Part shown: in pieces, positions 40,629-55,066 of the stretch
Layout: every line of letters starts with the position of its first letter
Numbering within the stretch: the first letter of the stretch is position 1
Source of the DNA: Oscillibacter sp.
Lineage (GTDB): Bacteria; Bacillota; Clostridia; Oscillospirales; Oscillospiraceae
NCBI RefSeq assembly: GCF_028693505.1
Contig: NZ_JAQUVF010000013.1
Location: forward strand, 1-64,000
DNA length: 64,000 bases
Reading direction: 5' to 3'
Position numbers and translations under genes: made by a program
Notes under the pieces: generated by a model
The model's input: only the letters and a program-made list of their open reading frames with translations
What the model was told of the DNA's origin: nothing
Databases searched by the model: none

Positions 40629-42929
40629 TTAAAGGTCTCCTGTGTCCTGATCGTCCGCAAGCTTATACTGTTTCCGATAATCACCGGGGGTAATTCCAAC
40701 AATCTTCTTAAAAACGCGATTGAAATTTTGAACAGTGTTAAACCCTGCCTTATACCCGATTTCTTTAATCATAATACGGGTCTTGATCAGAAGGTCCTTT
40801 GCAATCCGAATACGATACGTGTTTAGATAGGTAATCAGATTTTCTTTTGTGTACTCCGTAAAAATACTGCTTAAATATGTTTCGCTGATACCGATTGCAT
40901 CGGCGATCTGGCGAATGGACAGGTTGCTGTCACTGTAATTTTGCTGCATATATTCTTTGGCCTGTATAATCAAACGGAGTTGCCTGCTTTTTAATCCTTT
41001 CTTAATCGAATCGAGTAAGCAGGAGGTCTCTTCCAACATAAAGAGATAAATTTTCTTTGGATCGGACAGACTGTCCAACTGCCGGAACATAGAGGCGCTG
41101 CCTGTTTGATTTCGCCCAGTTGAATCCGCAGGGGTGTCCAATGTCCGTTCCACGAGAAGATCAAGAATTCGGGCGCAGACCTTTCGTATCAAGGCGAGTT
41201 CATTGGAAGAAACACATACATCCTTCAAAATTTGAGTCAACAGTGTTTCCGCCATGACCAAGTCGTGTTTGCATAAACAGGAGGAAAACAATTCCGTCTG
41301 TGAGATAAAGTAGGCTTCCTGACTGTCGTTGGAATCCTCCCCCGAAGCAGAGGGAGTGCTTTCACCTACGTTTTCCGCCGCATAATAAAGCGTTTTGCGG
41401 AGAGTTTCTTTCGCCTCGCTATAAGAGTGGCAAAGGTTTTCCAGCGTCACACAGACGTCTCCCCAGGAGAGTAAAATTCCTTCACTGACAGAATGCAGCT
41501 GGCGCTGCGCATCTGATAAAAACTGCTTTTTGATCTGGTTTATTTTTGTGCTGGAAAGACCGTCGGCATATTGCAGCACAAATGTATCCGTGTCGTTTTC
41601 CGGACGTAAAAAATACAGCATTCCCCAATCGAGGCGAATAATTTTTTGAAGAATAGATTGTACCTGCTTAAAGAAAATGTAGTTCACGAGATTTCCGCTT
41701 TCGACCGTATGTGTGGATTTCATAATGAAACACTGATATGTTCCGCCGGAAATCAGTGAACTTTGCATGGCTTTCAACTGCTGTTCCAGATCGTCCTCCT
41801 GGGAAGCCTTTCCTGCGATTAAATCCAGCAACAGATTTGATTCCAACTCCGGACGGGCCTGTATGATGAAGTCTTGGGCGGCCTTCTGGTCGCTTTGCAT
41901 TTGCCGGTAAGTCATGGTCAGCATTTCAACCTCACTGCCCGCCGCGCCCTTGCACAATGCGGCGTCGCCCTTGGACGGCGGCCGGTTTCTGGAAACCGAC
42001 AGAAATAGCTGGTTGATGGGGCGATAAAACTGCTGCGCAATCAGGAAGGAACAAATTAGCCCGACTGCCAACAAAATCAGGAGAAATGGCAGAATGCTTT
42101 TGAAATAAGTGCCGACGGAAATGTTCATCGGCTGAGGATAGGACAAAATGTAGTTCCATTCGGAATAATCGGACCGCAATGTCACCTTTCCGCGGCCAAA
42201 GTCGAGGGGTGAACGGCTGGTGAACAGCGGGTCGCTCTGCGCGGTTTGAATTTCTACGGTATATGGAGTATCTGCGACAGTCTGTCCCAGTTGTGAAAAT
42301 AGTCGTTCCCGATTCACCTGGGCAACCAGAACGCCTAAAAAAGCACCGTTGCCGGAAATAAAGCCGTGTGTCAGAAATATTTTATCCTGATAGACAACCA
42401 AACCGGAGGAGTAGCGATTTTTTTCGTAATTGAGCAGAGTCCAATTGCTTTCGTCCAGACAATACGTCAAAACATCTGTATAGTAAGAGTCTGTTGACGG
42501 CTGGAGCGCGTAGCGCGATGTAAGCAATAACTGGTTGGTTGCCTCGTAGAGACAGACGTAATCAATGTATGCGGAATTTTCCACAGTGGCGCGCAGGAAA
42601 GATACGATCTGAGCGTTCCGCTCAATGTCAGTGTCCTTTGGAACAATGATGGCATTTACAACGCGGTCGTTTCTGGACAAGGTAATCACGGAATCGTTCA
42701 AAAAGTAAAGGGAGTTGTCCAGCTTTTCTGAGATCTGAGACAGGTAGGAGTTCAAAGTCAATTCCTGCGTTTTTGAAAAGTTTTGAAAGTATATATGATA
42801 AATATAGGCAGAAAAGATTCCGATAAATAACATGGAAAACAAAATCAAAAGTAAATAAAAGAGGAAAAAGACACTTTTGAATTTAAACTGTTTGATCGTG
42901 TTAATTGTGTCGAGATATCGACGGTTCAT
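40629..42929 (-). CDS. Membrane-anchored AraC-type sensor-regulator
   Basis: 766 residues. An N-terminal membrane helix (about 18-45, KSVFFLFYLLLILFSML), a long extracellular region of Cache type (about 46-290), a second helix (about 295-320, LPFLLILLAVGLICSFLIAQ), a cytoplasmic linker, and a C-terminal AraC/XylS DNA-binding domain (about 660-760, LSIRQIADAIGISETYLSSIF and KEIGYKAGFNTVQNFNRVFKK). One-protein sensors of this design are common in Clostridia for sensing extracellular nutrients. ATG at 42927-42929 has GGAGG upstream. It is divergent from the glycyl radical operon and very likely activates it. Confidence 0.88.
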   Translation of the reverse strand: MNRRYLDTINTIKQFKFKSVFFLFYLLLILFSMLFIGIFSAYIYHIYFQNFSKTQELTLNSYLSQISEKLDNSLYFLNDSVITLSRNDRVVNAIIVPKDTDIERNAQIVSFLRATVENSAYIDYVCLYEATNQLLLTSRYALQPSTDSYYTDVLTYCLDESNWTLLNYEKNRYSSGLVVYQDKIFLTHGFISGNGAFLGVLVAQVNRERLFSQLGQTVADTPYTVEIQTAQSDPLFTSRSPLDFGRGKVTLRSDYSEWNYILSYPQPMNISVGTYFKSILPFLLILLAVGLICSFLIAQQFYRPINQLFLSVSRNRPPSKGDAALCKGAAGSEVEMLTMTYRQMQSDQKAAQDFIIQARPELESNLLLDLIAGKASQEDDLEQQLKAMQSSLISGGTYQCFIMKSTHTVESGNLVNYIFFKQVQSILQKIIRLDWGMLYFLRPENDTDTFVLQYADGLSSTKINQIKKQFLSDAQRQLHSVSEGILLSWGDVCVTLENLCHSYSEAKETLRKTLYYAAENVGESTPSASGEDSNDSQEAYFISQTELFSSCLCKHDLVMAETLLTQILKDVCVSSNELALIRKVCARILDLLVERTLDTPADSTGRNQTGSASMFRQLDSLSDPKKIYLFMLEETSCLLDSIKKGLKSRQLRLIIQAKEYMQQNYSDSNLSIRQIADAIGISETYLSSIFTEYTKENLITYLNTYRIRIAKDLLIKTRIMIKEIGYKAGFNTVQNFNRVFKKIVGITPGDYRKQYKLADDQDTGDL

Positions 42930-43410
42930 GCGGCATCCTCCGTTGTGCTGTTTTCTGTTCAATTTAAAATACCTGTTTTGCAAGTGTAACACAAAATAAA
43001 GGGTTTTACAAATTTACCAACGGCACAGCCCGCGTGACCGGGAAAATACGTTTATTTGCCCAAAGCGATGGGGATGCGCGGCAAAGTCATCAAGGGAACC
43101 GTAATATTGTGGAAAACTGAACGGATTCTTCACAATGAAATGAAAAATATTTTCTGAATCTGAAGGTTCTTCCCCAAAAACGCAAAAAATGCGTAGAATC
43201 ACAGAATAAGACTCTATGCAAAATTTACAGATTCGATTATGCTAAAGCGACAACGAAACAAAAAATAAATTCGATTCAATTGTGTAACTTGACAAACGGG
43301 CGTGACTGGTTCAGAAATTGAGACTCTCGCAAACTCCCGATGGGCGCGTCTGGCCTAGTGCAAAAAAACGGGGTAAAACTTAACATACAACATAAAGGAG
43401 TGCCTACATC
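42930..43410. promoter_or_regulatory. Divergent control region, 481 bp
   Basis: The only gene-free stretch above 300 bases. It is AT-rich compared with its neighbours. ATTCGATT occurs as a direct repeat at 43231-43238 and 43269-43276, followed by a TTGACA at 43289-43294 with no good -10 element at the proper distance. That layout suits an activator-dependent promoter with AraC-type half sites. For the minus strand, TTGTGT and TATTTT 17 bases apart near 42970-43000 are a possible promoter. No RNA gene is seen. Confidence 0.45.
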
Positions 43411-44427
43411 ATGACGGATGATATGGTTCGCTGGGGAATGATCGGCTGCGGCGACGTTACGGAAGAAAAGAACGGCCCGGGGCTTTACCGCGCATCGCAT
43501 TCCACTCTGGCAGGCGTTGCAAACCGAACCGAAGCGCGGGCGGAGGATTGGGTGAAGCGGCATGGGGCAGGCAAAGTCTATGACAGTGCCGAAGCGCTTC
43601 TTGCCGATCCCCAGATTGACATTGTATATGTTGCAACGACGCCGAATTGCCACAAAAAGTATGCCATCGCCTGCGCAGAGGCGGGAAAGCACTGCTATCT
43701 TGAAAAGCCAATTGCGCTTTCCTATGAGGAAGCAGAGGAGATCCGGGAAGCGTTTCAAGCCAGCGGCACAAAAATTTATGTCGCACATTATCGCCGCGGA
43801 ATGGGCCGGTATAAGGAGCTGCGCAGATTGCTGAACGAGGGCGTCATCGGCAAGGTGCGGGGCGTGCAGATTCTTCGCACGCAGATGCTGACGAGGGAGG
43901 AACGCCTGCCAGAGGAAGAAAAGCCGTGGCGAGTCCGCAGCACGATTTCCGGCGGCAGTTATTTCTTTGAGGCGGATATTCACATGCTGGATCTGATCGA
44001 TTATTTGGTAGGTGCGGCGGCGGATTTTAAGCTGGAGATTTCCAACGAGACCGGGTGCTATCAGGGAGAGGATGTGGTATCGCTCTCAATGCTGACGGAA
44101 ACGGGCGTCATGGTGAGCGGCCTTTGGTGTTATGCGGCCTGGCGGGAACTGGATCAGATTCTCATTTTTGGGGACAGGGGCACGGTGACGTTCCAGTACG
44201 GAAAGAACACGGAACCCATCACCATTGAAACGCCGGATGGCATCCGCCAAATCTGTCCCCCGGTCAACCCGAACATCGGCACGGAGCAGATTCAGGATAT
44301 TGTAGACGAGCTGAGAGGCTGCGGAGTTTGCCACAGCACCTTGGAATCAGCAATGCGTTCCCTGAAAATTACCGACGCCGCGGTAAAGCAATGGACTGCG
44401 TGTAAGAATGGGCTTAAAACGCTTTGA
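43411..44427 (+). CDS. Gfo/Idh/MocA family oxidoreductase
   Basis: A 338-residue NAD(P)-dependent sugar or polyol dehydrogenase. The Rossmann motif GMIGCGDVTEEKNGPGLYRA (about residues 10-29), the catalytic-lysine motif EKPIAL (near residue 98), and GGSYFFEADIHMLDLIDYL with the active-site Asp/His define the family. The GCGDVTE-x-x-x-GP start recalls the 1,5-anhydro-D-fructose reductase-like branch, which is suggestive only. AAGGAG lies upstream. It is the first gene of the glycyl radical operon and probably oxidises or reduces the substrate before, or the product after, the radical step. Confidence 0.88.
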   Translation: MTDDMVRWGMIGCGDVTEEKNGPGLYRASHSTLAGVANRTEARAEDWVKRHGAGKVYDSAEALLADPQIDIVYVATTPNCHKKYAIACAEAGKHCYLEKPIALSYEEAEEIREAFQASGTKIYVAHYRRGMGRYKELRRLLNEGVIGKVRGVQILRTQMLTREERLPEEEKPWRVRSTISGGSYFFEADIHMLDLIDYLVGAAADFKLEISNETGCYQGEDVVSLSMLTETGVMVSGLWCYAAWRELDQILIFGDRGTVTFQYGKNTEPITIETPDGIRQICPPVNPNIGTEQIQDIVDELRGCGVCHSTLESAMRSLKITDAAVKQWTACKNGLKTL

Positions 44428-44475
44428 CAAAAAGTCGGACCGGATACACGGTGGAGAAGAAGGAGTGAGCCAAGT

Positions 44476-46824
44476 ATGAATGATCGTCTGCGGCGTCTGC
44501 GGCAAAAGAATTTGGCGCAGACCCCGGAAATTTGCAGTGAGCGCGCGCGAATCGTGACGGAGGCGTACGAGCAGTTTCAGGATCTTCCCGCAGCGCTTCT
44601 GCGGGCCAGGACCCTTGAAAAGATTTTGAGAGAAATGTCGATCTGGATTGCGGACGACGAGCTGATCGTGGGCAATCAGGCCAGCATGGCAAAAGGAACG
44701 CCTGTTTTTCCGGAGTTCTCAGTGGACTGGATCATGCGGGAACTGGACCAATTTGAAATGCGGCGTTCCAGCAAGTACAAGCTATCGGCAGAAAACAAGG
44801 CTGTGCTCAAAGAAGTGCTTCCCAAGTGGAAGGGCAGGACCGTGAAGGAGCGGGCGCTCAGCGTGATCCCGGACGAGGCGAAGGAGGCCATGGCCTGTCA
44901 GGCGTTTTTGCTCTCGCCGCTTTCCTGCGGCCTTGGTCACATCAGCGTGCAATATGAAAAGCTGATTGATCGGGGGCTGGAGTATCTCATTGATGAGCTG
45001 ACGGAAAAAAAGGCGCACTGCCGCCCGGAAAACGCGGCGGACCTGGAGCGGGGAATCTTCTACGACTCCTGCCTGATCGTATGCAACGCCCTGATCGCGT
45101 TTGCCGAGCGGTTTGCGGCTTTGGCGGAGCAGAAGGCGGCTGCATCAGAGGAACCCCGCAGGGCAGAACTGCTGGAAATTGCGCGGGTATGCCGTAAGGT
45201 TCCCCGCCAAAGGGCAGAGACGTTTCAGGAGGCCCTGCAAAGCTTCTGGTTCCTGCATCTTTGCCTGCAAATCGAGTCCAACGGGCACAGCATGTCGCCC
45301 GGGCGGTTTGATCAATATACCATTCGGAGCTACAACGCCGATATGGAGCGCGGCATTTCCCCCCAGCGGGAGGAGGAGCTCCTTGGCTGCCTGTGGGTCA
45401 AATTTGCGGAGATCAGCAAGCTGCGGGACTATACAGGCTCCTTGGCGTTTGGCGGGTATCCCATGTTTCAAAATCTGATTGTGGGCGGCATGGACGCCGA
45501 CGGCCGCGACGTGACCAACGCGGTGTCCCTGCTTTGCTGCAAGGTCACGGCGGAATTGAAGCTGTCTCAACCGTCCCTTTCCATGAGATGGCACAAAGGT
45601 ACGCCAGAGTCTATGAAACGCTCCGCTGCCGAGGTCGCCCGGGCGGGGATCGGTATGCCGGCATATTTCAACGATGAGGCCATCATTCCCATTCTGCGCA
45701 ACATCGGCTGTTCACTGGAGGAGGCCCGCAACTACTGCGAGGTGGGCTGTGTGGAACCGCATGTGGCCGGAAAAATGGAGGGCATGTACTCCACAGGCTT
45801 TACAAATCTGTGCAAGGTTTTGGAATTGGCCATTTTCAACGGCGAGGACCCCGTCAGCGGTAAGAAGATCGGAATTCCCGTGGGCGAAGCGTTTGAGGAC
45901 TTCCATGATTTTTATAACGCCTACCGGAAGGAACAGCGCTACATCATGGATCTTCACGCGTTTTGCGTCAATGCCGTTGAGTATGCCCACAGCGCGATGT
46001 GTCCCACCCCGCTGGTGTCCTGCTTTGTAGAGGACTGCATTGAACGTGGAAAAGACATCCGTTGCGGGGGCGCCCACTATAACTACACCTCTCCCAACGC
46101 GGTGGGGCTGGCCAATCTGGGCGATTCCATGCTGGTCATCAAGAAAAAAGTATTTGAAAATCACAAGTATTCCATGGAGGAGATGCGAAAGATGCTTCGC
46201 TGTAATTTTCATGGGTACGAGACGGTGCGTCAGGAATTTTTGCACAATGTGCCTAAATACGGCAATGACGACGACGAGGCCGATCTCATGACAAGAATTT
46301 GCGGCGAGGACTATTGCAGGGACTTCAAGCGGTATACCGGGTATCGCAGCGCATCCTTCCAGCCGGGACTGCAAAGCATTTCCGCCCACGCGCTGTTTGT
46401 GGGCAGTCTGGGAGCCACGCCGGACGGACGCACAAAAGAGATGCTGGTTTCCGACGGCGGCGTATCTCCGGCGCAGGGGCGCGACGTCTGCGGTCCCACG
46501 GCAGAGATGCTGTCCGTGGCGAAGCTGAACCATTTTGAAGCCACCAACGGAGCGCTTTTAAATGTGAAATTCCATCCTTCCACAGTGCAGGGAGAAAAGG
46601 GACTCCAGAATCTGTGTGCGCTGACGGACGCCTTTTTTAACCTTGGCGCCCAGCACGTGCAGTACAACGTGGTGGACAGCGAAGTGCTGCGGGACGCGCA
46701 GAAGCATCCGGAAAAATACAGCGATCTGGTGGTTCGCGTCGCCGGCTTCAGCGTGCTTTTCACAACGCTGGATGTGGTGCTCCAAAATGATATTATTGAG
46801 CGGACCCAGCACGCTTGCTGCTAA
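44476..46824 (+). CDS. Glycyl radical enzyme of unknown substrate
   Basis: 782 residues of the pyruvate formate-lyase-like superfamily. The thiyl site is GCVEP with Cys425 and Glu427, the Cys-x-Glu pattern of dehydratase and lyase members (glycerol, choline, hydroxyproline, isethionate enzymes) rather than the Cys-Cys pair of PFL. The radical site is RVAGFSVLF with Gly757, followed by the usual hydrophobic tail. LSPLSCGLGHISVQYEKLI and SPGRFDQY line the barrel. The activase follows 15 bases later. No microcompartment genes are present, so it acts free in the cytosol. Sequence resembles glycerol-dehydratase/HypD relatives generally but the active-site surroundings do not let me name a substrate. 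Confidence 0.9.
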   Translation: MNDRLRRLRQKNLAQTPEICSERARIVTEAYEQFQDLPAALLRARTLEKILREMSIWIADDELIVGNQASMAKGTPVFPEFSVDWIMRELDQFEMRRSSKYKLSAENKAVLKEVLPKWKGRTVKERALSVIPDEAKEAMACQAFLLSPLSCGLGHISVQYEKLIDRGLEYLIDELTEKKAHCRPENAADLERGIFYDSCLIVCNALIAFAERFAALAEQKAAASEEPRRAELLEIARVCRKVPRQRAETFQEALQSFWFLHLCLQIESNGHSMSPGRFDQYTIRSYNADMERGISPQREEELLGCLWVKFAEISKLRDYTGSLAFGGYPMFQNLIVGGMDADGRDVTNAVSLLCCKVTAELKLSQPSLSMRWHKGTPESMKRSAAEVARAGIGMPAYFNDEAIIPILRNIGCSLEEARNYCEVGCVEPHVAGKMEGMYSTGFTNLCKVLELAIFNGEDPVSGKKIGIPVGEAFEDFHDFYNAYRKEQRYIMDLHAFCVNAVEYAHSAMCPTPLVSCFVEDCIERGKDIRCGGAHYNYTSPNAVGLANLGDSMLVIKKKVFENHKYSMEEMRKMLRCNFHGYETVRQEFLHNVPKYGNDDDEADLMTRICGEDYCRDFKRYTGYRSASFQPGLQSISAHALFVGSLGATPDGRTKEMLVSDGGVSPAQGRDVCGPTAEMLSVAKLNHFEATNGALLNVKFHPSTVQGEKGLQNLCALTDAFFNLGAQHVQYNVVDSEVLRDAQKHPEKYSDLVVRVAGFSVLFTTLDVVLQNDIIERTQHACC

Positions 46825-46839
46825 GGGCAGGTACATACG

Positions 46840-47739
46840 ATGAACGGCATTATATTTGATATTCAGCGCTTTTCCGTACATGACGGGGAGGGCATCCGGA
46901 CCAATGTGTTTTTTAAGGGGTGTCCGCTGCACTGCGATTGGTGCAGCAACCCGGAATCGCAGAGTACGCACCCCCAGCCCATGTACGACGCGCAAAAGTG
47001 CATCCACTGTGGGCGCTGCGCGCTCGATTGTCCGTCCGGGGCGATTCAGACCAGTCCCGCATATCAAATCGATCTTTCAAAGTGTTTGACCTGCCGGGAC
47101 CTTACCTGCGCGGCGGCGTGTTGTTCCACGGCGCTGACGATGGTGGGAAAGCGCTATACAGCAGATGAGATTGTCCGAATTGTCAAAAGAGACGCTGTGT
47201 TTTATGGGCACTCACAAGGGGGCATTACCATTTCCGGCGGTGAAGCGGTGGTGCAGATCGACTTCCTGATGGAACTTTTGCAAAAGTGCAGGGAGGAGGG
47301 CCTGAACACCGCCATGGAAACCTGCAGCGCCTGCGGCTGGGAGCAGATCCGGCGCACCATGCCGTATATCGACACCTATTTGTGCGATGTGAAACACACC
47401 AATGCGCAAAAGCTGAAGGCGGAGACGGGGGGCGATGCAAAAATTTTGCTTGGGAACATTAGAAAGCTGGCGGAAAACGGCGGGAACATCATTGCCCGCA
47501 TCCCCATGATTCCCGGCTTTAACACAGATCTGGACGAGGTCCTTGCAATCGGTCAATTGATTGCCGGCTGTGGGATTCGCAAGGTAGAGCTTTTGAACTT
47601 TCACAGGCTGGGCGTTCCCAAATACGGGAAATGCTTCCTGAACCGAGCGCCAAAGGATCGGACGCCGCTGACGGCGCAGGAGCTGGAGGGGCGCATGGAG
47701 ATTTTACGGCAGCTTTCACTGGATGTGACGGTTGGTTAG
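46840..47739 (+). CDS. Glycyl radical enzyme activase (radical SAM)
   Basis: A 299-residue radical SAM protein that installs the glycyl radical on its partner. The cluster motif is Cys28-x3-Cys32-x2-Cys35 (GCPLHCDWC) after DGEGIRTNVFFKG. Two ferredoxin-like 4Fe-4S sites follow: Cys54, 57, 60, 64 and Cys82, 85, 90, 94. These are typical of activases for dehydratase-type enzymes and absent from PflA. ITISGGEAVVQ binds SAM. It is 15 bases downstream of the enzyme gene and clearly its partner. Confidence 0.95.
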   Translation: MNGIIFDIQRFSVHDGEGIRTNVFFKGCPLHCDWCSNPESQSTHPQPMYDAQKCIHCGRCALDCPSGAIQTSPAYQIDLSKCLTCRDLTCAAACCSTALTMVGKRYTADEIVRIVKRDAVFYGHSQGGITISGGEAVVQIDFLMELLQKCREEGLNTAMETCSACGWEQIRRTMPYIDTYLCDVKHTNAQKLKAETGGDAKILLGNIRKLAENGGNIIARIPMIPGFNTDLDEVLAIGQLIAGCGIRKVELLNFHRLGVPKYGKCFLNRAPKDRTPLTAQELEGRMEILRQLSLDVTVG

Positions 47740-47792
47740 AGAAATGAATTAGGCAATCACAAGCCTGATCAATAAATTTGGGAGGATTCGAC

Positions 47793-48836
47793 ATGAAAAA
47801 ACTGATTTCTTTGATTCTGGCATTGGGAATGGCGCTCAGCCTTGCGGCCTGCGGTGGGTCCGGCAGTTCCGCCGGCAGCACGGCTCCGGCGGATTCCGGC
47901 GGAAGTGACGCCGGTGCGCAGAGCGGCAAGCAGATTGTTTTGAAGTTCGCCTGTGATGACACAACGACTTCCTCTTACTACATTGCGCTGGAAGAATTCA
48001 AGAAGGAAGTAGAAGAAAAGTCCAACGGTTCGATTGCCGTGGAGCTGTATGGAGACGCGGCACTGGGCAATGCAACGGATACCATTGAAGGAATGCAGCT
48101 GGGCACCATCGAGTGTGTGTTTGCGTCCACTGCGGCCGTCTCCGCGTTTGTCCCAGAGTTTTACTATGTGGATGCGCCGTTTATCTTCCGCGATGCGGAT
48201 CACGCCCACGCCGTGGTGGATGGCGAGGTCGGCAATACCATTGCCGAGGCCTGCCTGAATCAGCAGGGAATCAGAATCCTGGGCTGGTATGACACCGGGT
48301 TCCGTAATATTTACACCACCAAGGCCATTCGCTCCATCAGTGATCTGAAGGGCCTGAAGATTCGGACCATGCAGTCCGACCTGCACACAGCGACCTTCGA
48401 GGCGCTGGGCTGTCTGCCTACCCCGATGTCCTCCTCTGAGGTCTACACGTCGCTCTCTCAGGGCACCATTGATGCCGCAGAAAACTGCTATTCCTATGTT
48501 GTGAACCAGTCCATGTATGAGGTCTGCCCTTACATCATCAACACGGGCCACTTCTTCGGCTTCTGCGTGATCATGATCTCCGACAGCGTCTATCAGGCTA
48601 TGACGCCTGAGCAGCAGGAAATTGTCACGGCTGCGGCCACGAACAGCGTCACATTCCAGAGAGATCTGATGGAACAGCAGAACACGGACGCGGTTTCCAC
48701 GCTGAAAGATAAGGGAATCGAGTTCATCGATCTGAACCGTGATGAGCTAAAAGAAGCGGTGCAAAGCGTGTACAGCAGTTACAGCGACAAGCTGGACCCC
48801 GCTGTCATGAAGACAATTGAGGATACGAAGGGATAA
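47793..48836 (+). CDS. TRAP transporter substrate-binding lipoprotein (DctP type)
   Basis: A 347-residue solute-binding protein. The signal peptide ends in a lipobox (LSLAAC), so the mature protein is lipid-anchored. A Gly/Ser/Ala linker precedes the DctP domain, which contains GLKIRTMQSDLHTATFEALG. The arginine in KIRTM is the residue that in this family usually pairs with a substrate carboxylate, so an organic acid is the likely cargo (inference). The conserved YTSLSQGTIDAAE segment follows. ATG 47793 has GGGAGGA upstream. The gene lies 53 bases after the activase. Confidence 0.9.
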   Translation: MKKLISLILALGMALSLAACGGSGSSAGSTAPADSGGSDAGAQSGKQIVLKFACDDTTTSSYYIALEEFKKEVEEKSNGSIAVELYGDAALGNATDTIEGMQLGTIECVFASTAAVSAFVPEFYYVDAPFIFRDADHAHAVVDGEVGNTIAEACLNQQGIRILGWYDTGFRNIYTTKAIRSISDLKGLKIRTMQSDLHTATFEALGCLPTPMSSSEVYTSLSQGTIDAAENCYSYVVNQSMYEVCPYIINTGHFFGFCVIMISDSVYQAMTPEQQEIVTAAATNSVTFQRDLMEQQNTDAVSTLKDKGIEFIDLNRDELKEAVQSVYSSYSDKLDPAVMKTIEDTKG

Positions 48837-48907
48837 AAGCATACGCGCCATGGTGTGTCTGCCGCGTGGGGGCACACCATGGCGTGATAGGGATGGGAGC
48901 CTTACAC

Positions 48908-49417
48908 ATGAAAAAAATAATGAAATTCTTGTCCGACTTTGAATCAATCATTTGTGTGATCTGCTTCATTGTGATGGCCTGCGGATGCTTTTTTCAGGTA
49001 GTGAATCGTAATATTTTCAAAATTCCCCTGAGCTGGACGGAAGAGCTGTCTCGTTTTGCGATGGTCTGGATGGCGCTGCTTGGCTCCGAAATCGGATTGC
49101 GGCAGGGAAAGCAGATGAGCGTTGATGCAGTTGTGAATCACCTTCCGTTCATGCCTAAGAAAATCGTTGAATGCTTCGGCTGCCTTATCAGCGCTGCGTT
49201 TGCAGGTGTTTCCGGGTTTTATGCCATTCAGTTCGTCATAACGACCTATCGAAACGGACAGCTTTCCAGCGCAATGGACTGGCCCATGTGGGCGGTTTAT
49301 CTGATTCTTCCGTTGAGCCTGCTGCTCATGGCGGCCTATGAGGTGTGGGAGCTTGTCCACACGCTGCTTCGAAAGAGAGAAAGCGGAGACGCAAAAGACG
49401 AAGGAGGCAGCTTGTGA
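48908..49417 (+). CDS. TRAP transporter small permease (DctQ type)
   Basis: A 169-residue protein with four membrane helices: one near residues 10-32, then a helix with SWTEELSRFAMVWMALLGSEIGLRQGKQ, the most conserved DctQ stretch, and two more before a charged C-terminus. It couples with DctM to import substrate using a sodium gradient. ATG 48908 with GGGAG upstream is used; a GTG 42 bases earlier is open but less likely. The stop overlaps the dctM start region. Confidence 0.9.
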   Translation: MKKIMKFLSDFESIICVICFIVMACGCFFQVVNRNIFKIPLSWTEELSRFAMVWMALLGSEIGLRQGKQMSVDAVVNHLPFMPKKIVECFGCLISAAFAGVSGFYAIQFVITTYRNGQLSSAMDWPMWAVYLILPLSLLLMAAYEVWELVHTLLRKRESGDAKDEGGSL

Positions 49418-50694
49418 TGTCAACAGGAACGCTTGCCCTGCTCTTATTCGGACTTTTTGTGGTGCTGATGATTTTAAAGGTGCCGGTTTCTTATTGCCTT
49501 GGTATTGCCAGCACGGTCTGTTTAATTGTATTGGGTTATCCGCTGACGGTGGTCAGCCAGAAGATTTTTAACGCGCTGAATTCGTTTTCGATTATGGCGA
49601 TCCCGCTGTTTATCCTCGGCGGCAACATCATGTCGGAGGGTGGCATTTCAAAACGGCTGATCGAATTTTGCGAGTCGTTGGTTGGTAATATCCGCGGCGG
49701 CTTGGCGCTTGTGGTGATTTTGGCCTGCGCGTTCTTTGCCGCGCTCTCCGGCTCCGGCCCCGCAACCGTGGTTGCAATCGGAAGCATGATGTATCCTGAA
49801 ATGGTAAAGCGCGGATACCCCAAGTATCAGGTGGCCGGACTGGTGTCCGTGGCCGGAGGCCTGGGGCCCATTATTCCGCCCAGCATCATCATGGTCGTGT
49901 ACTGCACCATCACACAGACCAACATTGCCAGCCTGTTTTCTGCCGGTTTTGTGGTTGGCGCGCTTTTGGTTATCGCCATGTGCCTCATTTCCTGGGTAAT
50001 GTCCAGAAAATATGCGTGGCCCATTGCCGAAGAAAAATTTACAATTAAAAAGGTCCTGCGCTCCTTCAAGCACTCGATTCTGGCACTTTTAATGCCGGTC
50101 CTTGTCCTGGGCGGCATTTATTCCGGACTGTTTACCGCCACGGAGGCCGGTGCGGTTTCTGTGTTTTACTCACTGGGAGTTGCTGTGTTCATTTACAAAA
50201 CCCTGAAATGGAGAGATCTGCTGAAAATTTTTAAGACCTCCGCAGTGTCCTGCTCCGTTATTCTGTTTATTATGGGAACCTCCACCGTGTTCTCCTGGCT
50301 GTTTACAGTCAGCGGTATTTCCGGCTGGATCGTCTCCACTGTGCAGGAGGCGGGCCTTGGGTATTACCCGGTGCTGCTGATCATTACGGTGGTACTGCTG
50401 ATCTTCGGCTTTTTCCTGGAGGGCATTGCCACGGTAACCATGCTGATTCCGCTTTTTCTGCCCATCGCGCTTGCCGTCGGCATCCATCCGCTGCATCTTG
50501 GTATGATTGTGACCATGACCAATGTGATGGGCTGCATGACCCCGCCCGTCGCCAACAACATCTTTGCGTGCAGCACATTCACCGGACTGCCCATGGGAGA
50601 GATCAGCAAGGGCGAGCTTCCGTATCTTGGCTGCTTCTTCGTGGTTTTGATGATCGTTGTTTTCTGCCCGACGCTGGTAACGATGTTTGCCTGA
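49417..50694 (+). CDS. TRAP transporter large permease (DctM type)
   Basis: A 425-residue, roughly twelve-helix permease, the ion-coupled channel of the TRAP system. Marks include NSFSIMAIPLFILGGNIM, SGSGPATVVAIGSMMYPEM, GGLGPIIPPSIIMVVY and the C-terminal MTPPVANNIFACST. ATG 49417 with GGAGG 10 bases upstream shares a base with the dctQ stop; GTG 49414 is possible. Order P-Q-M is standard. Confidence 0.92.
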   Translation: MSTGTLALLLFGLFVVLMILKVPVSYCLGIASTVCLIVLGYPLTVVSQKIFNALNSFSIMAIPLFILGGNIMSEGGISKRLIEFCESLVGNIRGGLALVVILACAFFAALSGSGPATVVAIGSMMYPEMVKRGYPKYQVAGLVSVAGGLGPIIPPSIIMVVYCTITQTNIASLFSAGFVVGALLVIAMCLISWVMSRKYAWPIAEEKFTIKKVLRSFKHSILALLMPVLVLGGIYSGLFTATEAGAVSVFYSLGVAVFIYKTLKWRDLLKIFKTSAVSCSVILFIMGTSTVFSWLFTVSGISGWIVSTVQEAGLGYYPVLLIITVVLLIFGFFLEGIATVTMLIPLFLPIALAVGIHPLHLGMIVTMTNVMGCMTPPVANNIFACSTFTGLPMGEISKGELPYLGCFFVVLMIVVFCPTLVTMFA

Positions 50695-50787
50695 GCACGT
50701 TACAGGGTTGAGTTGAGTCTGTAAATCAAACGGCTGTGTTTAGCGCAGAATGTGCCAAACGAAAAGGTAAAAGGAAGGATTGATCGT

Positions 50788-51264
50788 ATGATGAAGCTTG
50801 CAATCGCTTCGGATTTCGCGGGTTTTTCTCTCAAGGAGGAGGTCAAGGCGCACCTCGTTCAACTGGGCCATGAGGTGATCGACGTGGGCCAGCAAACGGC
50901 GGAGGACACGGTCGTCTACGTGGACGCCGCGGCAAACGTGGCCAGGGCGGTGCAAAACGGTTCCTGCCAGCGCGGAGTCGTGATGTGCGGCACCGGCGGA
51001 GGCGTCAGCGTTTTGGCCAATAAATTCAAAGGTATTTATTGCGTGGCCTGTGAGAGCCTTTTTACGGCTCCCAAGTCTGCCGTGCTCAATCACGCCAACG
51101 TGCTGGCCATGGGCGGGCGCGTCATTGCCCCGGCAAATGCCTGCGAAATGGTGGACGCATGGCTGGAGGCAGGCTTTTGCGGCGGTTTCGAGCCGGAGCG
51201 GGCAAACTTTGTGGGAGGTCTTTTCGCCCGCTTACAGCAAATAGAAGCGGAAAATTTCAAATAA
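50788..51264 (+). CDS. RpiB/LacA/LacB family protein, divergent
   Basis: 158 residues of the RpiB/LacAB sugar-phosphate isomerase fold: LAIASDFAGFSLKEEVKAHL at the N-terminus, VVMCGTGGGVSVLANKFKGI with the family cysteine, and ANVLAMGGRVI. Several residues usual in RpiB are changed: DH-x-GF is DFAGF, the TDYPxYA strand is TVVYVDAAA, the SRxHN histidine position is leucine (VLNHANVL), and GGRH is GGFE. It may isomerise a different, perhaps unphosphorylated, substrate. It is the last gene of the glycyl radical operon, before a terminator. Confidence 0.82.
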   Translation: MMKLAIASDFAGFSLKEEVKAHLVQLGHEVIDVGQQTAEDTVVYVDAAANVARAVQNGSCQRGVVMCGTGGGVSVLANKFKGIYCVACESLFTAPKSAVLNHANVLAMGGRVIAPANACEMVDAWLEAGFCGGFEPERANFVGGLFARLQQIEAENFK

Positions 51265-51282: not shown

Positions 51283-51329
51283 AAATAAAGTCAGGACCAC
51301 CCGTATAACGGGTGGTCCTGATTTTATTT
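51283..51329. terminator. Bidirectional terminator overlapping the icd stop
   Basis: A 21-bp stem (51283-51303 with 51309-51329, one G-U pair) around a TATAA loop, with T-rich right end and A-rich left end. The right arm includes the icd stop codon (51324-51326). It ends both the glycyl radical operon and the acn-icd transcript. Confidence 0.88.
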
Positions 51330-52541
51330 CAGCGCCGCTTTTAAGCGGGCGGCTACCGCGTCCAAAAATTCCTCGCTGTTGACGGCGGTGGCGTGGAAGC
51401 CGGGTTCCGCCAACTCCGCCAGGTCCTTTGTCATCACGCCCGCGTTCAGCGTTTCAAAGCAGGCGCGCTCCAGCGTTTCGCCAAAGGCGGTGAGGTCTTT
51501 CAATCCGTCCAGCGCGCCCCGCTTTTTCAGCGCGCCGGACCAGGCGAAAATGGTGGCCATGGGATTGGTGGAGGTCACCTCGCCGTTCAGGTAGCGGTAG
51601 TAGTGGCGGGTGACGGTGCCGTGGGCGGCTTCAAACTCCGTGGTGCCGTCCGGCGATACCAGCACGCTGGTCATCATGGCGAGGGAGCCGAAGGCGGTGG
51701 AGACCATGTCGCTCATCACGTCGCCGTCATAGTTCTTGCACGCCCAGATATACCCGCCCTCGCTGCGGATGACTCGGGCCACGGCGTCGTCGATGAGGGT
51801 GTAGAAATAGGAGATGCCCAATTCCTTGAAGCGCGCTTGGTAAGAGGCCTCAAATTCCTCTTCAAAAATCCGCTTGAAAACGCCGTCATAGACCTTGGCG
51901 ATGGTGTCCTTGGTGGAAAACCACAGGTCCTGCCGGGTGTCGATGGCGTACTGGAAGCAGGAACGGGCGAAGGAGCGGATGGAAGCTTCCTTGTTGTGGG
52001 CGGCCTGCCACACGGCGGGTCCGTCCACATGCTGCACGGTGAGGGTCTTGCTTTCGCCGCTTTCGCCGGTGAAGGTCAAGGTGGCGGTGCCCGGCTCCCC
52101 GGTCTCCAGATCCACCGCCTTGTAAACGTCGCCGTAGGCATGGCGGGCAATGGTGATGGGGCGCTTCCAGTTCTTCACCACCGGCTTCACCGCGTCGATG
52201 CAGATGGGGGCGCGGAACACCGTGCCGTCCAAAATGGAGCGGATGGTGCCGTTGGGGGATTTCCACATTTCCGTCAGCACGGGATACTCTTTCATGCGCT
52301 GCTGGTTCGGTGTAATGGTTGCACACTTCACAGCAACTCCCAGCCGTTTGGCGGCGTTGGCGGCGTCCACCGTCACCTGATCGCGCGTCTCGTTCCGGTG
52401 CAGCAGGCCCAGATCGTAATATTCCGTTTTCAAGTCCACGAAGGGGAGCAGCAGCTTTTCCTTGATCATGGCCCACAAAACGCGGGTCATCTCGTCGCCG
52501 TCCATCTCCACCAGCGGGGTGGTCATTTGAATTTTTTCCAT
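51324..52541 (-). CDS. icd: NADP-dependent isocitrate dehydrogenase
   Basis: Oxidative decarboxylation of isocitrate to 2-oxoglutarate. The 405 residues and sequences such as PLVEMDGDEMTRVLW, ATITPNQQRMKEY, SPNGTIRSILDGTVFR and AAHGTVTRHYYRY are those of the type II, eukaryote-like homodimeric family found in many Clostridia and Bacteroidetes. The start codon is only one base downstream of the aconitase stop, so the two enzymes are cotranscribed and probably coupled. Direction: acn first, icd second. Confidence 0.94.
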   Translation of the reverse strand: MEKIQMTTPLVEMDGDEMTRVLWAMIKEKLLLPFVDLKTEYYDLGLLHRNETRDQVTVDAANAAKRLGVAVKCATITPNQQRMKEYPVLTEMWKSPNGTIRSILDGTVFRAPICIDAVKPVVKNWKRPITIARHAYGDVYKAVDLETGEPGTATLTFTGESGESKTLTVQHVDGPAVWQAAHNKEASIRSFARSCFQYAIDTRQDLWFSTKDTIAKVYDGVFKRIFEEEFEASYQARFKELGISYFYTLIDDAVARVIRSEGGYIWACKNYDGDVMSDMVSTAFGSLAMMTSVLVSPDGTTEFEAAHGTVTRHYYRYLNGEVTSTNPMATIFAWSGALKKRGALDGLKDLTAFGETLERACFETLNAGVMTKDLAELAEPGFHATAVNSEEFLDAVAARLKAALK

Positions 52542-52542
52542 G

Positions 52543-54783
52543 TCAATTCGTCCTCTTTGCGTAGTAATTCATGAGGCAGCCGTCCAGAATGATCTGCTTT
52601 TCGTCGTCGGTCAGGCCCTTTACGTGGAGCAGCAGCGGCACTGTCGTGCCGTCTTTTTGAAGGACCGTGGCGGGAATATCCTCCGCGCCGGAGGCAATGG
52701 CCTGCCGAATTCCGGGAACGAACACGCAGTCGCCAGGGCCGTATGGGAAGGGGGAACTCTGGTCGATGGTGAAGGGCAGGATGCCCCAGTTGATGCAGTT
52801 GGAGCGATAGCGCTTTGTGGCAAATTCGTAGCAGATGTTGGCAAAGCCACCCAGCACCTTCTGGCAGGAGGCCGCCTGCTCCCGGGCGGAGCCGTCGCCG
52901 GGCTTGTTGGCGAATACGCAGGAGCCGAACTGGGTACTGCGAAGCAGAGCCGCGCCGTCGCCCACCCGGTCCAAAAGGCCCTTCAGCGCTTCCGGTGCGC
53001 CGCCGGACAGGCGCTGTGCTTCCAGTGCGGCCGCCGCCTTGGCCCGGCCCACATAGGCCGCGTCCCGGCGGGAGAGGGTGAATTCCGCCAGACGCAGGGG
53101 ATTGGAGCGGTAAGAGGAGGTCTCACCGGAGGGGATCAGCTCGTCCGTTGTGGTAACAGGGTCACGCAGCACCGCCGCCAGCTCCACCAGCAGGTTTTCG
53201 CTGAGGGGCGCTACCTTGGGCCAGTCGGTGATGTTTGGCCCCAAAATCAGCTCCGCGTCCCGTTCCGGCTTCCCAAAACCGTTGTAGACCCGCCGGTCGT
53301 AAACGCCCTGATCGAAGTGGTAGGGGCGGTGGACCGGGGCATACGCCACGTCGGTGGCGGCGGTGATTTTACCGCCATTGCGCGCCGTTGCCGCGATGGA
53401 CCGGGCGTCCATCAAACAGACCCCGGCAAACTGCCCCTCGGCGGGCTTGGAGCCTTCCCGGTTGGGGAAGTTGCGGGTGGTGTGCCGGAGACTGAGGCCA
53501 TTGTTGGCGGGCACGTCTCCCGCGCCAAAGCAGGGACCGCAGAAGCTGGGCTTCATCAGCGCGCCGCACGAGAGCAGGTCCGCCGTGGCGCCGGTTTTCG
53601 TCAGCTCCAGACTCACGGGCACGCTGGTGGGATAGACGTCCAGCGAGAAGTATCCGTTGCCGCAGCTGCCGCCCCGGAGGATATCCGCGGATTCCGTGAT
53701 GTTGTCGAACAGGCCGCCGGCGCAGCCGGCGATCACGCCCTGATCGGCCCAAACGCCGCCGTCGTGGATTTTGTCCGCCAGCTTCACGTGGGCCTTGGGG
53801 AAGCGGGCGCGGGCGTCGGCTTCCACCTGGGCCAGGATCTCCGGCGCGTTTTCCAGGAATTCGTGGATGGTCCAGGCGTTGGAGGGGTGGAAGGGGAGGG
53901 CGATCATGGACTCCACCCGGGAGAGGTCCAGCTCGATGTACCGGTCGTAGTACGCGCCGTCTCCGGGCCGCAGCGGCGCGAATTCCCCGGCACGGTGATG
54001 GGTCTTGTAGAAATCCTCCGTCACGGCGTCCGTTTCCCAGATGGAGGAAAGACAGGTGGTCTCGGTGGTCATGACGTCGATGCCGTTGCGGAAATCGATG
54101 GGCAGGTCCGCGATGCCGGGACCGGCAAATTCCAGCACGCAGTTGTTGGCAAACCCGCTTTCAAAGGTGGCCTTCACCAGCGCGATTGCCACGTCGTGGG
54201 GGCCGACGCCCCGCTTCGGCGCGCCGGTGAGATAGACCAGCACCACTTTGGGGTACTTGACGTCCCACGTGTTTTTCAGCAGCTGTTTGCAAAGCTCCGG
54301 TCCGCCCTCGCCCACAGCCATGGTGCCCAAAGCGCCGTAGCGCGTGTGGGAGTCGGAGCCGAGAATCATCTTTCCGCAGCCGGCGAGCTGCTCTCTTGCA
54401 TAGGAGTGGATCACGCTCTGGTTTGCGGGGACGTAGATGCCGCCGTATTTTTTGGCGGCGGAAAGGCCGAACACGTGGTCGTCCTCGTTGATGGTGCCGC
54501 CCACGGCGCAAAGGCTGTTGTGGCAGTTCGTCAGTGCGTAGGGCAGCGGGAACTCCTTCAGGCCGGAGGAGCGGGCCTGCTGGATGATACCGACATAGGT
54601 GATGTCATGAGACACCATGGCGTCAAAGCGGATGTGCAGCTGTTCGGGGTCGTGGGAGACGTTGTGGGACTGGAGAATGTTCCACGCCATCGTCCGCCGC
54701 CGCCCTTCCTCCGGAGAAATGGGGGCAGCGGCGCAGAGCGCGCCGTCCACCAAAAACACACCGTCGTCGTGGAGAGTGATCAT
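52543..54783 (-). CDS. acn: Aconitase family hydratase
   Basis: A 746-residue aconitase-superfamily enzyme. The three Fe-S ligand cysteines are visible, in IAGCAGGLFDN and FCGPCFG. Substrate loops include LGSDSHTRYGALGTMAVGEGG and RNFPNREGSKP, and the swivel domain has IPFTIDQSS-like sequence near the C-terminus. The sequence departs from classical AcnA/AcnB (GCAGG instead of GSCTN) and belongs to a Firmicutes branch often labelled only hydratase. Its pairing with icd makes citrate-isocitrate isomerisation the likely role. ATG at 54781-54783 has AGGAGG upstream. Confidence 0.88.
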   Translation of the reverse strand: MITLHDDGVFLVDGALCAAAPISPEEGRRRTMAWNILQSHNVSHDPEQLHIRFDAMVSHDITYVGIIQQARSSGLKEFPLPYALTNCHNSLCAVGGTINEDDHVFGLSAAKKYGGIYVPANQSVIHSYAREQLAGCGKMILGSDSHTRYGALGTMAVGEGGPELCKQLLKNTWDVKYPKVVLVYLTGAPKRGVGPHDVAIALVKATFESGFANNCVLEFAGPGIADLPIDFRNGIDVMTTETTCLSSIWETDAVTEDFYKTHHRAGEFAPLRPGDGAYYDRYIELDLSRVESMIALPFHPSNAWTIHEFLENAPEILAQVEADARARFPKAHVKLADKIHDGGVWADQGVIAGCAGGLFDNITESADILRGGSCGNGYFSLDVYPTSVPVSLELTKTGATADLLSCGALMKPSFCGPCFGAGDVPANNGLSLRHTTRNFPNREGSKPAEGQFAGVCLMDARSIAATARNGGKITAATDVAYAPVHRPYHFDQGVYDRRVYNGFGKPERDAELILGPNITDWPKVAPLSENLLVELAAVLRDPVTTTDELIPSGETSSYRSNPLRLAEFTLSRRDAAYVGRAKAAAALEAQRLSGGAPEALKGLLDRVGDGAALLRSTQFGSCVFANKPGDGSAREQAASCQKVLGGFANICYEFATKRYRSNCINWGILPFTIDQSSPFPYGPGDCVFVPGIRQAIASGAEDIPATVLQKDGTTVPLLLHVKGLTDDEKQIILDGCLMNYYAKRTN

Positions 54784-55066
54784 AGGGGAAACCTCCTGCA
54801 ATCCCGGCCCGGGGCCGGACTTTTCTTGCCCAACAATATAACACAGATTCTTCCTCTTGGAAAGTCATTTTGCAGGAAAAGAGAGTTCAACTTGCAAATT
54901 TGGAATACTTACCAAGAAAGAAGGGGGAAAATCCCGTTGGTTTTGCCGCTTCGCCGCAACGCGCTTCGCGCCGGAGAGGGACTCTGCGGAACGTAGGTTG
55001 CGCAAAGTCCGGCAAAAGGGTATTCTAAACATAACGAAACCACAGAGAAATTGAGGAGAGCGAAAC

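Follow-up and report, generated by a model that had tools for sequence, protein, structure and literature searches.

A rare glycyl radical enzyme operon of Oscillibacter sp. and its possible role in anaerobic sugar-acid catabolism

Introduction

Many abundant glycyl radical enzymes (GREs) of gut microbes have no known function, according to the available part of a 2024 review (PMC11574389). In this study we analyzed a GRE gene cluster of Oscillibacter sp. located within a stretch of 64,000 nucleotides of contig NZ_JAQUVF010000013.1, hereafter the window, to which all coordinates refer unless a locus label precedes them. The cluster comprises an AraC-type sensor-regulator gene that is divergent from seven genes on the plus strand, which encode an oxidoreductase of the Gfo/Idh/MocA family, the GRE, its activase, the three components of a tripartite ATP-independent periplasmic (TRAP) transporter, and an RpiB-like protein. 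We suggest, with a probability of roughly 0.4, that it is an AraC-controlled anaerobic sugar-acid operon of the uronate or aldonate type, in which the GRE would form a 2-keto-3-deoxy acid by dehydration of a dihydroxy acid. If true, this would give the GREs a further reaction class and open a radical way into the catabolism of 2-keto-3-deoxy acids. No description of a sugar-acid GRE was found among the titles and abstract openings listed in searches of the open-licence PubMed Central literature, which is weak evidence of novelty because most subscription journals lie outside that scope.

The closest described enzymes are the B12-independent glycerol and 1,2-propanediol dehydratases (1r8w, 5i2g, and 9rco), which have the fold of the window GRE (TM-score of 0.96 to 0.97) and share with it the Cys-x-Glu motif, His164, His281, and Ser282 (glycerol dehydratase numbering here and below). 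However, the window GRE carries Ser in place of Asp447 and Gln in place of Tyr640, is 42 to 44% identical to these dehydratases, and has TRAP and isomerase partners. A TRAP transporter is also found with a GRE in the isethionate system, but the window GRE is 29 to 30% identical to isethionate sulfite-lyase in the structural match, and none of the eight genes is a sulfonate gene. Another resemblance is to the isomerase-reductase pairs KduI-KduD and DhuI-DhuD, since isomerases of the KduI/IolB and RpiB families interchange in the clusters described here and an oxidoreductase is present in two of four. In contrast to those pairs, the window oxidoreductase is of the Gfo/Idh/MocA family and not a short-chain dehydrogenase/reductase (SDR), and the operon includes a GRE and a TRAP transporter. 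With the UxaC-UxaB-UxaA hexuronate route the proposed pathway has in common the order of isomerase, reductase, and dehydratase and the type of end product, whereas all three steps would be catalyzed here by unrelated protein families.

The GRE belongs to a distinct subgroup

The GRE gene (44476..46824, plus strand) encodes a protein with PFL-like and Gly_radical domains, the Cys and Gly radical residues, and a cognate activase of the radical SAM type with a 4Fe-4S domain (46840..47739, plus strand; above the TIGR02494 cut-off). The first-pass annotation of this DNA had singled out Cys425 and Glu427, which lie in a Cys-Val-Glu motif (45748..45756), and the expected glycyl radical site Gly757 (46744..46746). 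This assignment is in agreement with our alignment A1, in which Cys425 and Gly757 are invariant and the residue two positions past Cys425 is Glu in eight of nine rows and Gln in the remaining one, from locus L012. The same annotation had found the set of partner genes to differ from those of the choline, glycerol, hydroxyproline, isethionate, and DHPS clusters, and the equivalog models, the sequence and structure searches, and the phylogenetic tree place the enzyme in none of the characterized subgroups compared. The protein exceeds the cut-off of the broad PFL2-3 subfamily of NCBIfam (751 versus 678 bits) and passes none of the NCBIfam equivalog cut-offs, the best scores being 611 versus 1,109 bits for PRK09983 and 601 versus 1,100 bits for HypD. 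Placement with HypD, CutC, HpfG/HpsG, the indoleacetate or 4-hydroxyphenylacetate decarboxylases, PFL, or PRK09983 was rejected on these scores and on the sequence and structure searches. Isethionate sulfite-lyase (IslA/IseG) was likewise rejected; in the structure search 5ymr ranked 40th and 7kq3 ranked 44th with 29% identity; in the sequence search 7kq3 scored 365 bits compared with 694 bits for the top match.

By sequence, the solved structures nearest to the window GRE are those of glycerol dehydratase (1r8w) and the diol dehydratases 5i2a and 9rco, and those nearest to the structural model of the GRE (mean predicted local distance difference test [pLDDT] value of 90.1) are 9rco, titled 1,2-propanediol dehydratase, 1r8w, and 5i2g, with identities of 41 to 42%. 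Three diol dehydratase references share 55 to 58% identity among themselves in the alignment. In addition to the residues named above, the window GRE retains Cys433 and Glu435 of glycerol dehydratase. The positions of Asp447 and Tyr640, to which we presumptively assign active-site roles, are occupied by Ser439 (45790..45792) and Gln633 (46372..46374). In a tree of 125 sequences (an earlier one had 124), the window GRE falls into a clade of 11 members with a support of 0.999; these represent 10 distinct sequences, as the GREs of L008 and L009 are 100% identical. Asp447 is lost in all 11 members, with Ser in five, Thr in three, Pro in two (the identical pair), and Asn in one, and Tyr640 is lost in 6 of the 11. 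The 71 "diol" sequences of the tree were picked by their possession of Asp447, Trp445, and Tyr640, so that only the clade side of this comparison is informative. Removal of the charged Asp447 would be in keeping with a substrate whose diol lies close to a carboxylate. Inside the clade, the window GRE groups with those of L123 (78% identity), L124 (76%), L004, and L005 (both 73%) with a support of 1.0. As judged by sequence, the GRE is a distinct subgroup, with no characterized member among those compared.

A clade GRE with Cys-Val-Gln instead of Cys-Val-Glu is encoded at 3930-6314 of L012, right after TRAP genes, in a metagenome-assembled genome (MAG) of the Fermentithermobacillaceae.

The operon is rare among bacteria. 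Of 86 genomes of the genus, the window genome and two more have orthologues at 70% identity or above. In the family (300 genomes), the highest identity listed for a genome other than that of the window was 40%. At an E value of 1e-220, only the window genome itself passed among 394 genomes of the order; at 1e-215, L005's own genome was likewise the only one of 397 that passed in its family. Two GREs at 73% identity (L004 and L005) were obtained from a scan of genome contigs that gave at least 80 GRE loci, and more may exist. All 47 records of a plasmid search were below 60% identity. With alignment A1 as the query, 15 of 398 genomes of the phylum passed, again including the window genome. Regions were retrieved from 8 of the other 14; apparent repeats of L012 and L015 were left out of the tree and an apparent repeat of L014 was kept, and none of the six GREs placed fell in the clade; four have the diol motif and two have others. 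The same alignment passed 3 of 384 genomes of the order, one of which (G339) holds a clade member whose upstream region is lost at the contig end. The record of L019 holds 202 bp upstream.

Conserved partners and the exchange of isomerases

Including the window, five clusters of the group were compared, two of them from incomplete genomes (G725, 60% complete, and G683, 84% complete). The GRE, the activase, and the DctP, DctQ, and DctM genes are present in 5/5. L123 ends just upstream of the GRE, which leaves four clusters with upstream sequence; all four carry the AraC-type sensor (about 29% identity), and two, the window and L124, carry the Gfo/Idh/MocA gene (43411..44427, plus strand, in the window). 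The slot of the last gene is occupied by the RpiB-like gene in the window alone (50752..51264, plus strand) and by a gene of the KduI/IolB family in L123 and L124, while the two Lachnospiraceae clusters, L004 and L005, have neither. The first-pass annotation had described a self-contained catabolic island of eight genes and had regarded recurrence of the whole set, with the TRAP and RpiB-like genes as conserved neighbors, as the test of this interpretation. It holds in part: the GRE falls into no equivalog and the TRAP genes are constant, but the eight genes do not recur together, and conservation as a neighbor does not extend to the RpiB-like gene. "Self-contained" is also too strong, as two relatives have only the sensor, GRE, activase, and transporter, and the proposed kinase and aldolase are encoded elsewhere in the genome.

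The RpiB-like protein matches PF02502 with 142.7 bits and falls below the cut-off of the equivalog TIGR01120 (117.6 versus 138.65 bits). It carries Phe, Tyr, Leu, and Phe in place of the His, Arg, His, and Arg common to all seven compared RpiB sequences (five from the searched genomes and two PDB segments), residues that we take to belong to the phosphate site. The Cys-Gly-Thr-Gly motif is retained, as are the Cys, the Thr, and a last Arg. A role as a sugar-phosphate isomerase was set aside as the first choice because of the four changed positions and the presence of another RpiB in each of the five genomes. On account of these four positions, we read the protein as a putative aldose-ketose isomerase for an unphosphorylated acid. 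Its score with NF006753, which we take to be a DhuI-like model, is only 23 bits.

KduI and DhuI, the latter of the RpiB family, have been described as nonhomologous isofunctional isomerases of 4-deoxy-5-hexosulose uronate (in the part of PMC12838403 available). The two families of this pair are exchanged in one operon slot here, and this gives a separate hint at what the intermediate may be. The SDR-family reductase that stands beside the isomerase in KduI-KduD was not found in the window cluster, which has only the Gfo/Idh/MocA enzyme. That protein retains the EKP motif and has Glu in place of the Asp of a 2glx segment ahead of x3-His. No KduI/IolB-family match was found in the window genome; G683 has a second one on another contig. 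The only RpiB-family match in each of G683 and G725 lies away from the cluster.

The transporter and its cargo

A complete TRAP transporter is encoded by dctP (47778..48836), dctQ (48866..49417), and dctM (49345..50694), all on the plus strand; the likely start of dctM, judged by eye, is near 49420. The nearest relatives of DctP by both sequence and model (mean pLDDT, a modest 67.4) are 4nq8, 4pdh, 4pdd, and 4p9k/4pak, which we take to be pantoate or erythronate complexes. The structure matches also include 7bbr, titled a sugar acid binding protein, at rank 13, and 4N8Y and 4X8R stand further down the same match lists. The ligands given in the available part of PMC11668362 are 2-keto-3-deoxy-gluconate for 7BBR, galacturonate for 4N8Y, glucuronate for 4X8R, and pantoate or erythronate for other proteins. 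Arg176, Arg196, and Asn236 of DctP are invariant in the five aligned sequences. We tentatively take them to be the carboxylate-binding residues described in the part of PMC11668362 available; they do not name the cargo.

Sister loci of the clade and pathway genes elsewhere

In L008 and L009 (Desulfosporosinus) and in L053 (a MAG of the Oscillospiraceae), genes for an acylating acetaldehyde dehydrogenase and a 4-hydroxy-2-oxovalerate aldolase are directly upstream of the GRE, and those of L009 and L053 exceed the NCBIfam equivalog cut-offs. A sugar-diacid recognition domain is present in the regulator encoded divergently in L008 and L009. Among at least 80 loci listed, this pair was found in three of seven clade loci and in none of 73 others. 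Of these 73, 59 include 2.3 kb or more of upstream sequence and 60 include 3.5 kb or more on the downstream side. The Fisher p value is 0.0004 when the identical L008 and L009 are counted separately and, calculated by hand, about 0.005 when they are counted as one copy (2/6 versus 0/73). Among the same loci, TRAP genes were found within 5 kb of the GRE in three of the seven and in one of the 73; in L012 they are ahead of the GRE. Aldolases of the 4-hydroxy-2-oxovalerate type take 4-hydroxy-2-keto acids; the sister GRE therefore probably makes such an acid, and a GRE that makes a 2-keto-3-deoxy group is the simplest link to the aldolase. In its partner genes the clade departs from other GREs, and it stands in varied settings, with TRAP and interchangeable nonhomologous isomerases, with TRAP but without them, or with a 4-hydroxy-2-oxoacid aldolase and an acylating aldehyde dehydrogenase.

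An aldolase of the 2-keto-3-deoxy-6-phosphogluconate (KDPG) family was found in all five genomes searched, with three copies in the window genome. In two of these three stretches a 2-keto-3-deoxygluconate (KDG)-type sugar kinase adjoins the aldolase, and the kinases match a kinase-aldolase fusion model below its cut-off. A galactonate dehydratase above the NCBIfam cut-off is encoded at L187 730-1878, in one stretch of the window genome with a KDG-type kinase. None of the three genomes of the genus that carry the cluster, two of which are the incomplete G725 and G683, gave a UxaC match. The pattern of UxaC (absent in these three, present in the two Lachnospiraceae genomes) would look like a clean complement to the GRE, but with the reductase and dehydratase-family genes near UxaC in the Lachnospiraceae it is hardly informative on the GRE of these genomes.

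Proposed pathway and alternatives

We propose that the AraC-type protein would sense a sugar acid and that the TRAP transporter would import it. The RpiB-like isomerase and the Gfo/Idh/MocA enzyme might interconvert uronate, keto acid, and aldonate. After activation of the GRE by its radical SAM partner, the thiyl radical on Cys425 would abstract a hydrogen beside a hydroxyl group, and water would leave the neighboring carbon of the vicinal dihydroxy acid with the help of Glu427, giving a 2-keto-3-deoxy acid. This product could be phosphorylated by a KDG-type kinase and split by a KDPG-family aldolase, both encoded elsewhere in the genome. More tentatively still, a GRE that dehydrates sugar acids in this way would be a radical, oxygen-sensitive counterpart of the sugar-acid dehydratases already described, in a small clade with varied pathways around it.

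A number of observations weigh against this proposal. The two Lachnospiraceae clusters lack both the isomerase and the Gfo/Idh/MocA gene, which would mean that they import an acid that is already an aldonate, or else that the scheme fails for them. Moreover, in both Lachnospiraceae genomes UxaC is grouped with a galactarate/altronate-dehydratase-family protein and a tagaturonate reductase that exceeds its cut-off, and the GRE fills no obvious gap there. The absences in G725 and G683 are soft, as these genomes are incomplete. Within the clade the branching is weak (0.402 and 0.228 in two trees), L012 has Gln for the catalytic Glu, and the aldolase link amounts to two independent loci because the GREs and regulators of L008 and L009 are identical; the transporter downstream in L009 is of the major facilitator superfamily and not TRAP. 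The RpiB-like protein passes the NCBIfam subfamily NF004051, named ribose-5-phosphate isomerase B (139.7 versus 135 bits). The KduI/IolB proteins of L123 and L124 are nearer to IolB, although below its cut-off (93 and 79 versus 205 bits), which would also fit a cyclitol route. As for the cargo, DctP also matches the isethionate-binding IseP at rank 7 and then many sialate-binding proteins, and the ligands of crystallized TRAP proteins mostly co-purified with them, according to the available part of PMC11668362.

Alternatively, the GRE might act first, dehydrating an imported hexuronate at C4/C5 to 4-deoxy-5-hexosulose uronate, which the isomerase and the Gfo/Idh/MocA reductase would convert to 2-keto-3-deoxygluconate as KduI-KduD and DhuI-DhuD do. 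The isomerase families are the same as those of KduI and DhuI, DctP ranks among uronate binders, and the KDPG-family aldolase is present in every genome searched, all of which fit such an order. We nevertheless consider it less probable, though a close rival, given that the window cluster is without an SDR-type reductase and that neither a KduI-family match nor a second RpiB above the cut-off was found in the two Lachnospiraceae genomes, which do have the GRE. The order of isomerase, reductase, and GRE, which would make the pathway a radical version of the route through uronate isomerase, reductase, and aldonate dehydratase, is slightly favored over a GRE that acts first on uronate.

Less probable again is a cyclitol pathway, with oxidation of an inositol-like ring or a cyclic polyol acid by the Gfo/Idh/MocA enzyme, dehydration by the GRE, and isomerization of the opened product by the IolB- or RpiB-like protein. 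The top NCBIfam match of the oxidoreductase is inositol 2-dehydrogenase, below the cut-off (87 versus 355 bits), and the swapped-in isomerase scores with IolB; however, the five clusters as read contain no gene for a ring-opening hydrolase, and the TRAP ligands named in the part of PMC11668362 available are acids, with no cyclitol among them. We consider it improbable that the GRE is a diverged glycerol or 1,2-propanediol dehydratase acting on a small diol beside unrelated genes. Its nearest solved structures are diol dehydratases and five of their active-site residues are retained, but Asp447 is lost throughout the clade and Tyr640 in part of it, the identity to the references is well short of that among them, TRAP genes accompany the GRE in every cluster, and no diol or microcompartment gene is among the eight. 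A known GRE eliminase of the C-S, C-N, or other kind (isethionate, choline, hydroxyproline, or sulfopropanediol type) has the same fold and motif, and isethionate uptake by TRAP has been published (PMC11668362, part available), with IseP among the DctP matches, but this is very improbable in view of equivalog scores far below the cut-offs, the lower ranks in the sequence and structure searches, and the lack of any sulfite, amine, or proline gene among the eight.

Gene arrangement and surroundings

The eight genes listed in the first-pass annotation are supported by open reading frames at the coordinates given there and by Pfam matches, each above its own cut-off: AraC-type HTH, Gfo/Idh/MocA, PFL-like and Gly_radical, radical SAM and 4Fe-4S, DctP, DctQ, DctM, and LacAB_rpiB. 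The sensor-regulator of 787 amino acids (40629..42992, minus strand) has a C-terminal HTH_18 domain, and its membrane segments were assessed by eye; its homologues are beside the GRE in L004, L005, and L124. In the divergent intergenic region (42993..43410), an AGGAG-like ribosome binding site was read ahead of the plus-strand operon. The intergenic gaps within the operon are 15 to 57 bp, and dctQ and dctM overlap by 73 bp given the first in-frame starts; several gene starts are the first in-frame GTG or TTG, and the true starts may be further in.

A terminator had been annotated after the last gene, but none was flagged on the plus strand there; the strongest hairpin (51291..51321, 14 pairs), which lies between convergent genes, has its T-rich tail on the minus strand and was flagged on that strand only. 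It suits the convergent gene for isocitrate dehydrogenase. The region contains 14 terminator-like sites compared with a mean of 14.0 in shuffled sequences. At 51324-54801 on the minus strand, convergent to the operon, are the genes of an NADP-dependent isocitrate dehydrogenase and an aconitase-family hydratase, both above their NCBIfam equivalog cut-offs. The GC content is 0.45 to 0.56 within the cluster, 0.56 to 0.64 in the adjoining few kilobases, and again 0.52 to 0.53 at 57 to 60 kb.

Other GRE loci

The window genome encodes two other GREs on another contig, in a second island (L190; contig C12, 1-15932, minus strand). This island contains genes for a shikimate-dehydrogenase-family protein, an SDR, FAD-binding proteins, TRAP P-Q-M components, two GREs flanking an activase, an AraC-type regulator, and an aldo/keto reductase. 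Its GREs are about 35% identical to the window GRE and outside its clade, and the island may serve a quinate- or shikimate-like acid. In L112 and L113, from the family of the window, two or three GRE-like open reading frames are side by side. Another group of GREs, with Cys-Val-Glu followed by a Trp-Gly-Tyr-Arg loop, was found in L079-L082, L086, L088, L089, L119, L121, and L122, from records of Enterococcus, Tetragenococcus, and Atopobacter and of the family and genus of the window. In L079-L082 the activase gene is divergent from that of the GRE.

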